Shown in pieces: positions 3,378-34,983 of a stretch of DNA of 52,124 bases. The stretch is taken from contig CANQNW010000014.1 of assembly GCA_947625305.1 (NCBI GenBank), positions 1 to 52,124 on the forward strand, in the 5' to 3' direction. Position numbers and translations under genes: made by a program. How positions within the stretch are numbered: position 1 is the stretch's first letter; every line of letters starts with the position of its first letter. This DNA comes from Candidatus Gastranaerophilales bacterium. Its GTDB lineage: Bacteria; Cyanobacteriota; Vampirovibrionia; Gastranaerophilales; Gastranaerophilaceae. The notes under the pieces are model-generated. The model saw only the letters and a program-made list of their open reading frames with translations, was not told the origin of the DNA and made no database searches.

Positions 3378-3503
3378 ATTATGTCTCCTTTCTTGAATAT
3401 CCGATTATACTACATTTTTTTATTAAAATAAATATACCGATTTTATGATATATTCTTGATAATAAAAAAAATATTATTTAAAATATTTTTAAAGGTTAAA
3501 AAT

Positions 3504-4487
3504 ATGCACTATAAAAGCTGTCAATGGATAAACAGAGGAATAGAATTCAGAACGGATGAAATCCGCCTTTGCTGTTACGGATATTTGCAGGGCAGAGAAA
3601 CCGAATATCAAACAACTTTATTTTCTGATTATCATGGCGGAAAAATCGATTGGGATAAATTCTTTGAAATAAAACATCAATTAAAGCAAATGCATAAAGA
3701 AGGCAAATACTTGGATGCCTGCAAAGACTGTATTTATTTGCATGAAAGCGATTGGGATGATGATGATTACATAAATCATTTTACATTCAACCATTGGACA
3801 AAGTGTAATTGCGCTTGCACATACTGTTACACGAATAATGACAAAAAAGCTTACAATCAATATAAAGAATATAAAATTTATCCGATAATAAAAGATATGT
3901 TTAAGAAGGGATTAATAAAGAAATTAGAGAGTTCCTGTTTATGCTTTGGGGGCGGAGAGCCTACTATTTTAGATGATTTTGATAAACTTATTGATATCTT
4001 TTTAAAGCATGGAAGCAAAAATATCAGAATTAATACTTCAGGAATAAAATATTCAAAAAGCATTGAAAAAGCACTTAAACTTGGGGCTATGAGTATTGTA
4101 ATATCGCTAGATGCAGGCTGCAGTGAGACTTACGAAAAAATAAAACAGGTAAAGTGCTATGATAAAGTCTGGGATAATATAAGAAAATATATAAAATGTC
4201 AGAAAGAACCTAATCTTGTAAAAGTCAAATTTATTTTAATCCCAAAAGTTAATGACAGTTACGAAGAAATAAACAAATGGTTTGATGAAGTTGTTAAAAA
4301 CGGAATTAAAGCCGTAAGTTTGAGTGTTGAGCAGGACTGGTTTAACACCAATCAGCCGAATTTTCCTGATGACATATATGAAAAGATTTCGTATATGGAG
4401 CAAAAAGCAAAAGAATTAAATCTTGATATGGAAATTTACTGTGAGGCTCTGGCTGTTTTAAGAGACGGCAAAAAAAACCCTTCTTAA
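3504..4487 (+). CDS. Radical SAM protein with N-terminal cysteine pairs
   Basis: 327 residues from the ATG that follows AAAGG; a TTG 48 nt upstream is in frame but has no RBS. The radical SAM cluster motif CNCACTYC gives C101, C105 and C108, and GGGEP at about 149-153 is the SAM-binding glycine motif. Before the core there are CC (23-24) and CKDC (73-76), which may hold an extra Fe-S site, as in SPASM/twitch-like enzymes but placed N-terminally. The protein uses 4Fe-4S chemistry to cleave SAM; its substrate is unknown. No small peptide gene or other partner is visible beside it. Of three radical SAM genes in the window, this one alone has no homopolymer nearby. Confidence 0.85.
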   Translation: MHYKSCQWINRGIEFRTDEIRLCCYGYLQGRETEYQTTLFSDYHGGKIDWDKFFEIKHQLKQMHKEGKYLDACKDCIYLHESDWDDDDYINHFTFNHWTKCNCACTYCYTNNDKKAYNQYKEYKIYPIIKDMFKKGLIKKLESSCLCFGGGEPTILDDFDKLIDIFLKHGSKNIRINTSGIKYSKSIEKALKLGAMSIVISLDAGCSETYEKIKQVKCYDKVWDNIRKYIKCQKEPNLVKVKFILIPKVNDSYEEINKWFDEVVKNGIKAVSLSVEQDWFNTNQPNFPDDIYEKISYMEQKAKELNLDMEIYCEALAVLRDGKKNPS

Positions 4488-8747: not shown

Positions 8748-9595
8748 AAACTATAAAAATAAAAACTCCGGCCAAAATTAATTTAACTCTAGAAGTCCTA
8801 AATAAGCGTCCTGACGGATTTCATAATATTCAATCAATTATGCAGACTATTAATTTATATGATTATTTAACTTTTGAACTTGAAGAAAAAGAAGGAATTA
8901 CAATAAATTTAAGCGGGAATACGGATGAAATTCCTTATAATGAAAAAAATTTAGTTTATAAATGTGCATTAAAATTTTTTGAAAAACTGCAAATTAAAAA
9001 TGTACATTTAAATGTTTTTATTGAAAAAAATATTCCCGTATCAGCAGGCTTAGCGGGCGGAAGTACAAACGGTGCAGGCACTTTCTATGCTTTAAATAAA
9101 TTGTATAATAATTTGCTCAATCAAAAAGAATTAGAAGAATTATGCGCTCAAATGGGTTCGGATTTAAATTTCTGCCTGACGGGCGGCTGCAAATTATGCA
9201 CATCAAGAGGCGAAATAACGGAAAATTTACCTTTTTATGAACAAAATGTATCTTTGATTAAACCTAAAAATCTCGGAATAAGCGCAAAAGAAGCTTATAC
9301 AAAATTTGCAATGCTCAAGGATAAAACAAATCCAAATAATACGGATAAATTAAAAAAACTTTTAGAAGAGGGAAAATTTGATAAATCACTTATATATAAC
9401 AGCTTGGAAAAAGCGCTGTTAAACGATTATAAAGAATTGAACGAAATAAAAACAAATGTTAAAAATTCTCTAATGTCAGGGAGCGGATCAACGTTTTTTG
9501 TATTAAATAATAAACTTGAAGGGGATTTTGACACAAATGAATACACAATAATTGAAGGTTTAAAAACAATACCGCAAGGAGTTGGGCAAGTATAA
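8744..9595 (+). CDS. ispE: 4-diphosphocytidyl-2-C-methyl-D-erythritol kinase
   Basis: 283 residues, GHMP kinase fold. It phosphorylates CDP-ME in the MEP route to isoprenoid precursors. PAKINLTLEV (9-18) holds the catalytic Lys11, the ATP loop PVSAGLAGGSTNGAG lies at 98-112, Asp140 is in GSDLNF, and the C-terminal LMSGSGSTFF is present. It overlaps rsmA by 4 nt and shares one base with the murQ start (TAATG), so the three genes form a tight operon. Confidence 0.96.
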   Translation: MKTIKIKTPAKINLTLEVLNKRPDGFHNIQSIMQTINLYDYLTFELEEKEGITINLSGNTDEIPYNEKNLVYKCALKFFEKLQIKNVHLNVFIEKNIPVSAGLAGGSTNGAGTFYALNKLYNNLLNQKELEELCAQMGSDLNFCLTGGCKLCTSRGEITENLPFYEQNVSLIKPKNLGISAKEAYTKFAMLKDKTNPNNTDKLKKLLEEGKFDKSLIYNSLEKALLNDYKELNEIKTNVKNSLMSGSGSTFFVLNNKLEGDFDTNEYTIIEGLKTIPQGVGQV

Positions 9596-25600: not shown

Positions 25601-25611
25601 TTTGTTTAATA

Positions 25612-25640
25612 TTGCAATTTAAAACAGGTATTTTTATAAT
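25612..25640 (+). promoter_or_regulatory. Promoter of the RRE-radical SAM gene, leaderless
   Basis: TTGCAA (25612-25617), exactly 17 bp, consensus TATAAT (25635-25640), then TAACAT and the ATG at 25647. No Shine-Dalgarno. Confidence 0.7.
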
Positions 25641-25646
25641 TAACAT

Positions 25647-27017
25647 ATGTTTAAAGTAATTAAAAATATTACAATCTCAAAACACATATCAACTACAACA
25701 TACCACATAGATTCAACCCCTTTTGCATTAAGTTTTATAACTGATTTAAAAAATCGCATCGAATATGTTTTAAAAGGTAAAATTGCAATTTTATGGGAAT
25801 TTATTGTTCAAACTCTTGATTATGATTTAATCAGGGAATTTGCCGTTAAAAATCAGCTTGAAAATATTCTTGATGATTTTTTATCACAATTAAAGGAAAT
25901 AAATTTAATTGAAACAGATTTAGAATTTCCTTCATATAAAATTAATTATTTCAATCAACATATGAATTTTAATAATAAAGATTATAACTATTTTTTAAAA
26001 TCTAAAAGAAAATTTTGCGAAAATCATAAATTTATAGAAATACTAACATTAGATTTAACCTATAAATGTAATTTAACTTGCAAACACTGCTGTTCACCAC
26101 AAGCAAAAGATGATTGTGAAATAACATATGAGCAGGCAAAAAAAATTATAGATGACTTTTGCGGGTTTGGAATAAATCAAGTTTTTATGACAGGTGGAGA
26201 ATGCACTTTAAATAAAGATTTTTTAAAAATTGCAAAATATGTAAGAAGTAAACATTTAAATCTTTTTATTTCTACTAACGGACAAAAACTATATGACGAT
26301 GAAAATTTGTTTAATGAACTTATAAAAATTTATCCTTATTCTATTCAATTAAGTTTATACAGTACGAACCCTGACATACACGATAATATGACAGGAGTAA
26401 AAGGGTCATATAACAAAACTCTATCGGTAATAAAAAAAATAAAAAAAAATAATATTTCAGCAGGTATTTCAAACTTTGTTTCAAAATACAATAAAACCAG
26501 TGCTAACGATTTGAAAAAACTGGCTAAAGAATTAAATGTCAGTTATACAGATACTTGTTTATTTATTAATAATCCGGAGAATAATAATTTTGAGGCGGAA
26601 CTTTGCGAAAAAGATATTGAAAATTTTTACTATAATCTTGCTCAATATTCATCAACTTATAAAAAATTCGAAAAAAATGATGAATCTCTTTGCACGGCAG
26701 GTATTACAAGAATAGCAATAGCTCCTAACCTTGATATAATTCCTTGTTTATACAATAGACATATATTAGGAAATTACAATACTACAAGCATAAAAGAGTT
26801 GAAAGAAAAAATACTGCCTGAATATCGTAAAATTTTTACATCAAATAATTTAACCGAATGCTTTAAATATGACTATTGTAAATATTGTTCATATTGTTCT
26901 ACTTTAGCTGCATTTAATGAAGGCTTTATGAAAAAATCAGAGATTTTATGCACAAATGCCAGAGCTATGCAAAAAGCATTCTTAAAATATGAACAGTTGA
27001 AAAAAGCTGAAACTTGA
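25647..27017 (+). CDS. RiPP-type maturase: PqqD-like RRE + radical SAM + SPASM
   Basis: 456 residues. Residues about 20-90 (LKGKIAILWEFIVQTLDYD to FLSQLKEINLIE) look like a PqqD-type RiPP recognition element. The radical SAM motif CNLTCKHC gives C141, C145 and C148, with TGGE at 182-185. The C-terminal ~110 residues hold SPASM-like cysteines (SLCTAG..., IIPCLYN, ECFKYDYCKYCSYC) for auxiliary 4Fe-4S clusters. This architecture is that of enzymes that modify ribosomal peptides by radical chemistry. A 54-residue peptide gene with a strong RBS lies 244 bp downstream, the natural candidate substrate. No exporter or protease is adjacent. The chemistry installed cannot be read from sequence. Confidence 0.88.
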   Translation: MFKVIKNITISKHISTTTYHIDSTPFALSFITDLKNRIEYVLKGKIAILWEFIVQTLDYDLIREFAVKNQLENILDDFLSQLKEINLIETDLEFPSYKINYFNQHMNFNNKDYNYFLKSKRKFCENHKFIEILTLDLTYKCNLTCKHCCSPQAKDDCEITYEQAKKIIDDFCGFGINQVFMTGGECTLNKDFLKIAKYVRSKHLNLFISTNGQKLYDDENLFNELIKIYPYSIQLSLYSTNPDIHDNMTGVKGSYNKTLSVIKKIKKNNISAGISNFVSKYNKTSANDLKKLAKELNVSYTDTCLFINNPENNNFEAELCEKDIENFYYNLAQYSSTYKKFEKNDESLCTAGITRIAIAPNLDIIPCLYNRHILGNYNTTSIKELKEKILPEYRKIFTSNNLTECFKYDYCKYCSYCSTLAAFNEGFMKKSEILCTNARAMQKAFLKYEQLKKAET

Positions 27018-27025
27018 TTTATACT
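26997..27025 (+). promoter_or_regulatory. Promoter inside the maturase 3' end
   Basis: TTGAAA (26997-27002), 17 bp, TATACT (27020-27025), AAAGCT, ATG at 27032. It has the same spacing as the maturase promoter and predicts a leaderless start for the G-tract ORF. Confidence 0.55.
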
Positions 27026-27031
27026 AAAGCT

Positions 27032-27233
27032 ATGAGCAAGTTTTTAAGCATGTTTTCAAGATTTAAAAAATCCCCCAAAGTTGGGGGGGGGGATTTTAGG
27101 CTGTAAATTTTCTCAAAAGCCCCTATCTAAAAGAAATTTAAAATCATTTTACTTTTTAATTAATACTCATTCCCTTAAAACTGAAAACAAATCCGTTATA
27201 AAAAACGGAGGTATTTTGCTTGCAAATATTTAA
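27032..27233 (+). CDS. Putative phase-variable small ORF with a G10 tract
   Basis: From the ATG at 27032 the reading is MSKFLSMFSRFKKSPKV, then glycines from a G10 run (27083-27092). With ten G it stops at 27106 (24 residues). With nine G the frame runs on for 46 more codons to 27233, about 66 residues in all, through ILGCKFSQKPLSKRN... to GGILLANI. A -35/-10 pair at ideal spacing lies 6 nt before the ATG. The basic, Phe-rich N-terminus could be a membrane-active or secreted peptide. The tract also forms one arm of a hairpin, so it may instead be only a terminator. No family recognised. Confidence 0.4.
27067..27097 (+). terminator. Hairpin with G10 arm after the maturase gene
   Basis: AAAATCCCCC (27067-27076) pairs with GGGGGATTTT (27088-27097). 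The run of T is only four long and is part of the stem. It may terminate the maturase mRNA 50 bp past the stop, while variation in G number would shift the pairing register. Confidence 0.5.
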
Positions 27234-27261
27234 AAAAAAATAAATATGAAAGGAGCATTTT

Positions 27262-27426
27262 ATGCCAGATGATAAAAATTTAGATGATTTAAGTATTGAT
27301 GAAGTTAATGAACTTTTTAACTCTGTTATAGAAGTACCTGAGGAATGGAAAATCTCCGCTATATCGGTGAATCAATCTTGGATGGACAAATATATTCAGG
27401 GTGATCGTACTGGTTCTTCTTGTTAA
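27262..27426 (+). CDS. Candidate RiPP precursor peptide, 54 residues
   Basis: Below the usual gene-size cut-off but well supported: AAAGGAG lies 6 nt before the ATG. Residues 1-26 are acidic and helical (MPDDKNLDDLSIDEVNELFN), like the leader of peptides recognised by PqqD-type domains. Residues 27-54 form a different, polar segment with two Trp (29 and 40), one Tyr (44) and a single C-terminal Cys (EEWKISAIS..., SWMDKYIQGDRTGSSC). It is encoded downstream of the RRE-radical SAM-SPASM gene on the same strand. The Trp-x-x and terminal Cys residues are plausible sites of radical crosslinking. I know no named family that matches. An unrelated small regulator remains possible. Confidence 0.6.
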   Translation: MPDDKNLDDLSIDEVNELFNSVIEVPEEWKISAISVNQSWMDKYIQGDRTGSSC

Positions 27427-27599
27427 AATTAAAAAACCAGAGACTTTATATGCCAATACCTGATTAATACGAAAAAAGTATTTGTTTAAATATTTTAATA
27501 ATATTTAAAGCAAGTACTTGAAATATTATTTTCTTCTTACTATTATAATAAGCAAGACTTACCCACCACCAAAGTCACAACATCAAAAAGGAAAAAAGA

Positions 27600-34076: not shown

Positions 34077-34983
34077 ATGGACAATTTTATATTTAGTCAA
34101 TATATTGAAGGGGAACATAAAATAACAAAGATTTTTGGAATTAAAATAAAAACGTTTACCCCCCCCCTCACGCAATATTGCAGGATATGTTGCAAAAATA
34201 GTGCCTTATAGTTTTTTACCAAGGCTTGAAATACATATTGCCGAACATTGTAATTTAAATTGTCAGAGCTGTACTCATTTTTCACCTATTGCTGAACCTG
34301 AATTTTTACCCGTTGATGAATTTGAAAAAGATATAAAAAGAATGTCGGAATTAACTGACAGAATTGATGATATTCATATTCTGGGCGGTGAACCACTTTT
34401 AAATCCTGATTGTATTAAGTATTTAGAAATAGCAAGAGAATATTTCCCTAAATCTAATATAAAATTAGTTACAAACGGAATTTTGCTTCCATCTATGACC
34501 GACTTTTTCTATGAGTCTTTAGCAAAATTTAATATAATACTTGCACCGACTAAATATCCTATAAAAATAAATTGGGATAAAGTTCAAAAAAAATGTAAAC
34601 AATTTTCTGTTAATTTAGAATTTTTTAATGACAGTAAAGTTATAAAAACCTCGTATAAACTTACTTTAGATACTAAAGGTACACAAAATGAAAAAATAAG
34701 TTTTATTAAATGTTCGCACGCAAATTCATGTATACAATTAAAAAAAGGAAAAATATATACTTGCTGTACCGCAGCATATATAAATCATTTTAATAAATAT
34801 TTTAAAACAAATCTGTGCGATGATGAATATAACGGAATTAATATATACAAGGTAAATAATATACAAGAAATTTTAGAGTTTATAGCACATCCGATACCAT
34901 TATGTAAATATTGCAATGTATATAAACATTTATATGGTTTAAAATGGAAAACCTCAAATAAAAATATTGAAGAATGGATTTAA
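34077..34983 (+). pseudogene. Radical SAM protein, frameshifted at a C9 tract (probably phase-off)
   Basis: AGGAG and ATG begin the frame MDNFIFSQYIEGEHKITKIF, which runs into nine C (34159-34167) and stops at 34211 after 44 residues. The frame after the tract continues SRNIAGYVAKIVPYSFLPRL and then a complete radical SAM domain: HCNLNCQSC (CxxxCxxC), ILGGEPLLNP, and later Cys clusters (CCTAAY, CKYC). With eight (or eleven) C a 301-residue protein results. The family, with C-x-HFSP after the cluster, is often found with surface-polysaccharide genes, which is family knowledge and not shown here. A GTG at 34201 could start a shorter form but has no RBS. Confidence 0.8.
34159..34167. repeat. C9 homopolymer in a coding sequence
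   Basis: Nine consecutive C in an AT-rich gene, exactly where the reading frame breaks. One base less restores the frame. Confidence 0.85.

Follow-up and report, generated by a model that had tools for sequence, protein, structure and literature searches.

A radical SAM maturase and its candidate precursor peptide in a Gastranaerophilales bacterium: a possible new RiPP locus with inferred chemistry

Does a radical SAM gene that is followed, on the same strand, by an open reading frame for a 54-residue peptide represent a RiPP locus, and if so, to which class does it belong? The question was raised by an initial annotation, made without database searches, of a 52,124-nucleotide stretch of DNA (the window; contig CANQNW010000014.1), which we assigned to the 1.97-Mb genome G000, whose nearest named relatives are Candidatus Gastranaerophilales MAGs. 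The best explanation is that the two genes encode the maturase and the precursor of a leader-guided, Cys-crosslinking RiPP system; we consider this likely, with the caveat that the chemistry is inferred.

The first gene (25647..27017, + strand) encodes a 456-aa protein in which a Pfam scan detected Radical_SAM (7e-19). The radical SAM/SPASM assignment requires a CxxxCxxC motif and auxiliary-cluster Cys, and both are present: the motif (C141, C145, and C148; 26067..26090, +) and all seven Cys of a SPASM-like region (349, 367, 405, 411, 414, 417, and 435; 26691..26951, +) are invariant in 27 homologues, and the Pfam SPASM score was slightly short of the cut-off (18.1 vs 21.5 bits). None of the curated NCBIfam maturase cut-offs was reached, and the protein stayed far under each, for example, 67 of 300 bits for SkfB and 57 of 850 bits for AlbA. 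The closest solved enzymes in profile and fold searches are the RiPP maturases SkfB, CteB, SuiB, and PqqE, of which SuiB, SkfB, and CteB are nearest to the entire protein: SkfB was the best PDB match of the sequence profile (1.9e-23), and SuiB was the best Foldseek match (3.1e-14) of an AlphaFold2 model of the whole maturase (pLDDT 78). Two further radical SAM-like genes lie elsewhere in the window: 34201-34983(+) shares 38% identity over 250 aa with a gene directly downstream of the maturase of locus L047, and 3456-4487(+), whose product contains CNCACTYCYT, has no obvious Cys peptide adjoining it.

The N-terminal domain of the maturase (residues ~6-93; 25662..25925, +) is predicted to be a PqqD-like RRE. 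The sequence evidence for this identity is weak, but the predicted structure is much clearer. Pfam found no PqqD match in the window maturase and only weak ones in 4 of 26 homologues (best 7.7e-5), and a profile search of PDB sequences retrieved no RRE; among the relatives, PF05402 gave a single match, elsewhere in the window's own genome (C2:208765). Residues 1-95, modelled separately (pLDDT 89.6), had as their best PDB match the RRE of TbiB1 with its leader (Z 11.4, 1.8 A, 82 residues), followed by a lasso-peptide B1 protein, cyanobactin heterocyclases (LynD-type), ThcOx, TruD, TigE, the PbtF RRE, MccB, SuiB, and CteB; every top match was an RRE. The annotated RRE-radical SAM-SPASM architecture thus held, and so did the PqqD-like N-terminus. 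It should be noted that RRE-like parts also occur apart from this fusion: in contig C17 of the window's own genome, a 106-aa stub (L076:6991-7311(-)) consists of only the RRE part of a maturase, being either a remnant or a stand-alone copy, and adjoins a leader peptide with PEEWKI, as in the window peptide; in an unrelated bacterium, a PqqD-like gene, assigned by eye, is followed by a separate radical SAM gene (L192:1746-3049(+)), a split form of the fused architecture.

The second gene (27262..27426, +) lies 244 bp downstream and encodes the 54-aa candidate precursor; an AAGGAG ribosome-binding site (27250..27255, +) is located 6 nt before its ATG. A family HMM built without any sequence of the window genome ranked this peptide first among 390 small ORFs of the window (E 2.4e-10, compared to 0.32 for the runner-up), and the peptide with an ideal ribosome-binding site claimed by the initial annotation held as well. 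No Pfam or NCBIfam family claims it. The predicted leader, MPDDKNLDDLSIDEVNELFNSVIEVPEEWKI (27262..27354, +), mostly retains the family motif (L10, S11, F19, I23, and E24), and the predicted core, SAISVNQSWMDKYIQGDRTGSSC (27355..27423, +), spans S32-C54, its exact boundary being inferred. The initial annotation had placed two Trp, one Tyr, and a terminal Cys in the C-terminal part; this held only in part, as W29 falls in the leader end PEEWKI, a motif common to a second peptide of the same genome, and the core contains one Trp, one Tyr, and one Cys. This Cys is the extreme C-terminal residue, so that at most one thioether can form; a WMDKY stretch is also present.

An iterated search of loci from the genus produced 95 peptides that share the leader ..ENLSxEEIxELYxDIIE..[IL][AS], in which near-constant columns (L, S/T, I, Y/F, D, I, I/V, and E) precede a short linker and [IL][AS]; an SD-like site precedes 81 of them. 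The cores behave differently: they align no better than shuffled sequences, their identity being close to the shuffled baseline (17.6 vs 16.0%; for long cores, 20.5 vs 19.8%). Cores are enriched in Cys and Gly and depleted in Glu, Ile, and Leu; Cys accounts for 11.9% of short cores vs 1.8% in the background and is present in 92 of the 95 cores, i.e., absent from three, whereas Trp in short cores is close to background (0.013 vs 0.008). Long cores, of roughly 40-140 aa, are Cys- and Tyr-rich. Nine family-peptide matches were found in the window's own genome, the window peptide included. Beyond the genus, 292 genomes of the phylum yielded only marginal matches to the leader (E about 1e-3 to 1e-2), all within long ORFs. 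A diversity-generating retroelement was considered and set aside, because the cores vary in length, not just in sequence. Two loci (L100:245-910(+) and L185:3440-4084(+)) encode single proteins of >200 aa with apparently three successive leader-like segments and one Cys-containing tail.

Of the 29 maturases in the clade to which the window copy belongs, 25 have an adjacent family peptide, and 21 of those 25 have, in addition, a TupA-like ATP-grasp gene upstream. One criterion for a RiPP locus is a precursor with a conserved leader and a variable core adjoining a modifying enzyme, and this criterion is satisfied, as is that of an RRE, by predicted fold. The initial annotation had named two outcomes that would refute it, homologous maturases without such a peptide nearby and an N-terminal domain without an RRE; it survived both checks, the second by predicted fold. 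Its proposal that the peptide is the substrate is supported, as the predicted conserved leader and variable core were found, the substrate role itself remaining an inference. Outgroup maturases, with unrelated peptide leaders, still adjoin short Cys-containing peptides; an example of such a leader, MLKISRIARHTSKIVCGCPLGSESACGIMYRQY, occurs in tandem at L079. A second precursor family, MLKIS..A.HT...GC...C, accompanies maturases of the same kind that form a different clade (L079:8673-8774(-) and 8838-8936(-); L069:4336-4434(+); L063:4287-4394(+); L066:335-445(+)); the window's own genome carries two of its members in tandem on contig C1. YcaO cyclodehydratase genes at L061:6713-8479(+), L065:5219-6890(+), and L070:7207-8937(+) adjoin outgroup maturases and a TupA ATP-grasp gene, bringing three RiPP enzyme types together at one locus; the L061 protein matches PF02624 (4.6e-46), and those of L065 and L070 cluster with it.

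The initial annotation did not foresee that the commonest partner of the family peptides is not the radical SAM enzyme but the TupA-like ATP-grasp ligase. A PF14305 gene immediately precedes 65 of the 75 testable peptides on the same strand, usually at a spacing of -11 to +40 bp. The Pfam E-values of these ligases range from 1e-22 to 1e-31, and 42 full-length sequences share 30 nearly invariant residues, including a Lys, an Arg-x-Asp, and a Glu, which we take to correspond to the catalytic residues of ATP-grasp enzymes. Unrelated cores are found even with ligases that share as much as 93% identity. The window-type radical SAM enzyme goes with short-core peptides; long-core peptides are accompanied by the ATP-grasp and sometimes by a U32-peptidase-like gene or another radical SAM gene, most of them without the window-type enzyme. 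The U32-peptidase-like gene, found directly 3' of long-core peptides (L126:1044-2186(+), L124:140-1285(-), L138, L139, and L145), could possibly encode a leader protease or a tailoring enzyme. The window's own genome has eight PF14305 matches, and most of the genus has between 0 and 11; the counts rise to at least 50 in G022 and at least 52 in G009, an extreme lineage-specific expansion. In these two genomes (L146-L165 and L126-L145), a leader peptide whose long core is Cys-/Tyr-rich comes after many of the ligases. In other genera of the family, the copy number is 0-3, and no leader peptide was found downstream of PF14305 genes at the loci inspected there. Some family cassettes lie near glycosyltransferases.

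The window copy is atypical, another feature absent from the initial annotation. Its maturase is nested in a clade with an upstream peptide and ligase, and it is the sole member of that clade with a downstream peptide; no ATP-grasp gene is present at the locus, both flanks of which are fully visible. Comparison to sister species showed that the pair resides in a ~1.9-kb insertion (25601..27510) flanked by an M20 peptidase gene and rpsO, the right end being uncertain by tens of bases in AT-rich sequence. In the sisters G026 and G010, rpsO directly follows the M20 gene and the insertion is absent; the flanking genes are 92-100% identical to those of the sisters (M20, 92-94% in DNA). A phage origin was rejected, as the phage search returned distant radical SAM hits only, none with 80% coverage, and viral contigs yielded two distant radical SAM proteins; a plasmid origin was rejected, as only ~26%-identity radical SAM proteins were found on plasmids. 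No protease or exporter was identified at the locus. Export through a double-glycine leader and a C39 peptidase was also rejected: the conserved site is [IL][AS], and no PF03412 match exists in the window's own genome (96.8% complete).

RREs bind leaders, and SPASM radical SAM enzymes crosslink cores. In the mechanism that we propose, the conserved acidic leader (LSxEEIxELYxDIIE) would dock on the N-terminal RRE, and the radical SAM centre would remove a hydrogen atom from the C-terminal, hypervariable core; aided by the auxiliary Fe-S clusters, it would most likely join a core Cys sulphur to a nearby carbon in a thioether of the sacti/ranthipeptide type. The leader would then be cut off near [IL][AS] by a protease encoded elsewhere. 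In most relatives, the upstream-encoded TupA-like ligase would add a second bond of the amide or ester type; for the window copy, it may be supplied in trans or dispensed with, action in trans being conceivable since the same genome has other family peptides and the PF14305 genes counted above. The genes, the predicted RRE fold, the leader/core split, the Cys enrichment, the gene linkage, and the insertion are shown, but evidence of a bond, a product, or expression is lacking. Cys chemistry is best supported by the outgroup maturases, which lie beside Cys peptides even though the leaders of these are different. The single Cys of the window core, the three family cores without Cys, the missing ATP-grasp, and the unusual gene order count against the proposal.

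The rival explanation that survives best, and that we regard as possible, is a RiPP with a C-C crosslink or another aromatic change (a Lys-Trp bond as in streptide, or a cyclophane of three residues, W-M-D or Y-I-Q) in place of the Cys thioether. The top Foldseek match, SuiB, is the Lys-Trp streptide enzyme, and an enzyme of this kind could use the WMDKY of the window core, which has only a single, terminal Cys. Conversely, Cys is the residue most enriched over nearly all cores, Trp in short cores is near background, and the closest sequence profile, SkfB, is that of a thioether enzyme. A second, unlikely alternative is that the peptides are attached to, or modified with, glycan of the cell surface: the TupA-like ligase would couple them to a sugar or an amine, the radical SAM enzyme would merely tune some of them, and the result would be a surface feature, not a free natural product. 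The characterised TupA-like domain Cj1438C forms an amide on capsule glucuronate (PMC11800379), most long-core peptides lack the window-type enzyme, and the proximity of some cassettes to glycosyltransferases also fits; however, no glycan locus is constantly linked to the cassettes, the window copy has no ligase, and the leader and RRE logic is typical of RiPPs. It is also unlikely that the window pair is a decaying one, i.e., a nonfunctional inserted radical SAM gene with a stray precursor left after ATP-grasp loss. The downstream position of the peptide, unique in the clade, the absence of the ligase, and a second, degenerate copy in the genome (a peptide and the maturase stub at L076) are in line with decay, but both ORFs are intact, all catalytic and cluster Cys are retained, the ribosome-binding site is strong, and the leader motif is largely kept. 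A chance ORF beside an unrelated radical SAM enzyme, to which a short ORF in an AT-rich genome might point, is all but excluded by the foreign-only profile match and the adjacency in the relatives.

Returning to the preferred reading of a Cys-crosslinking system, the gene pair appears to offer modified peptides from a new natural source, insofar as the inferred chemistry is correct. The initial annotation considered the class undescribed, and this is supported, as no family and no named class fits, although the inference is from sequence alone and no product has been seen. The open-access literature that we searched contains no account of RiPPs from Gastranaerophilales/Melainabacteria, or of TupA ligases acting on peptides, which leaves novelty unproven. 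The architecture of an RRE-radical SAM-SPASM enzyme with a precursor is already known and the bond is unproven; therefore, we keep the claim of novelty modest, and the ATP-grasp side may deserve more. A bolder reading, toward which we lean only slightly, is that TupA-like ATP-grasp ligases define a new RiPP class, which has a common leader, hypervariable Cys-rich cores (<10 to ~140 residues), and >=50 ligase copies in some gut Gastranaerophilales, and in which the RRE-radical SAM maturase is an optional second tailoring enzyme, carried alone at the window locus. If this is true, a ligase family that the literature found describes only as acting on polysaccharides would join ATP-grasp peptide chemistry, and gut bacteria would be shown to hold a natural combinatorial library of peptides, with one leader, two enzyme types, and about a hundred unrelated cores in one genus. 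The loci are small (1-3 genes) and directly testable, and the matched cassettes are ready substrates for probing the tolerance of the RRE-radical SAM enzyme.

Among known systems, sactipeptides and ranthipeptides (SkfB, CteB, and PapB) are similar in having an RRE-radical SAM-SPASM maturase adjoining a leader-core precursor with core Cys, and they include the nearest PDB sequences and folds; their criterion of a Cys-bearing core is met by nearly the whole family, with one Cys in the window core. They differ in that the window maturase is under the curated cut-offs, the family leader is unrelated, and the present family has hypervariable paralogous cores, a usual ATP-grasp partner, and no C39-type exporter found. 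Streptide and other radical SAM-crosslinked RiPPs resemble the system through SuiB, the best fold match with the RRE included, but no conserved Lys-Trp motif is apparent across the family cores, which are hypervariable, the window core having WMDKY. Graspetides likewise combine an ATP-grasp enzyme with a precursor, and sometimes with SPASM enzymes (PMC8939145); the ligase here, however, is TupA-like PF14305, unmentioned in that 2022 survey, no NCBIfam graspetide ligase model matches the family ligases, so that the MvdC/D-like criterion is unmet, and 8 of 44 short cores offer no Asp/Glu for a linkage, a C-terminal carboxylate as the linkage site not being excluded. The TupA-like ATP-grasp enzymes of polysaccharide loci (Cj1438C and TupA) share PF14305, whereas the ligase here is paired with a leader peptide. 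Finally, prochlorosin genomes pair one leader type with many variable cores, and the ProcA/ProcM system of picocyanobacteria (PMC10783134) is similar in this respect; there, a solitary lanthipeptide synthetase is present, whereas here radical SAM and ATP-grasp enzymes take its place and the modifying genes are copied with most of the peptides.
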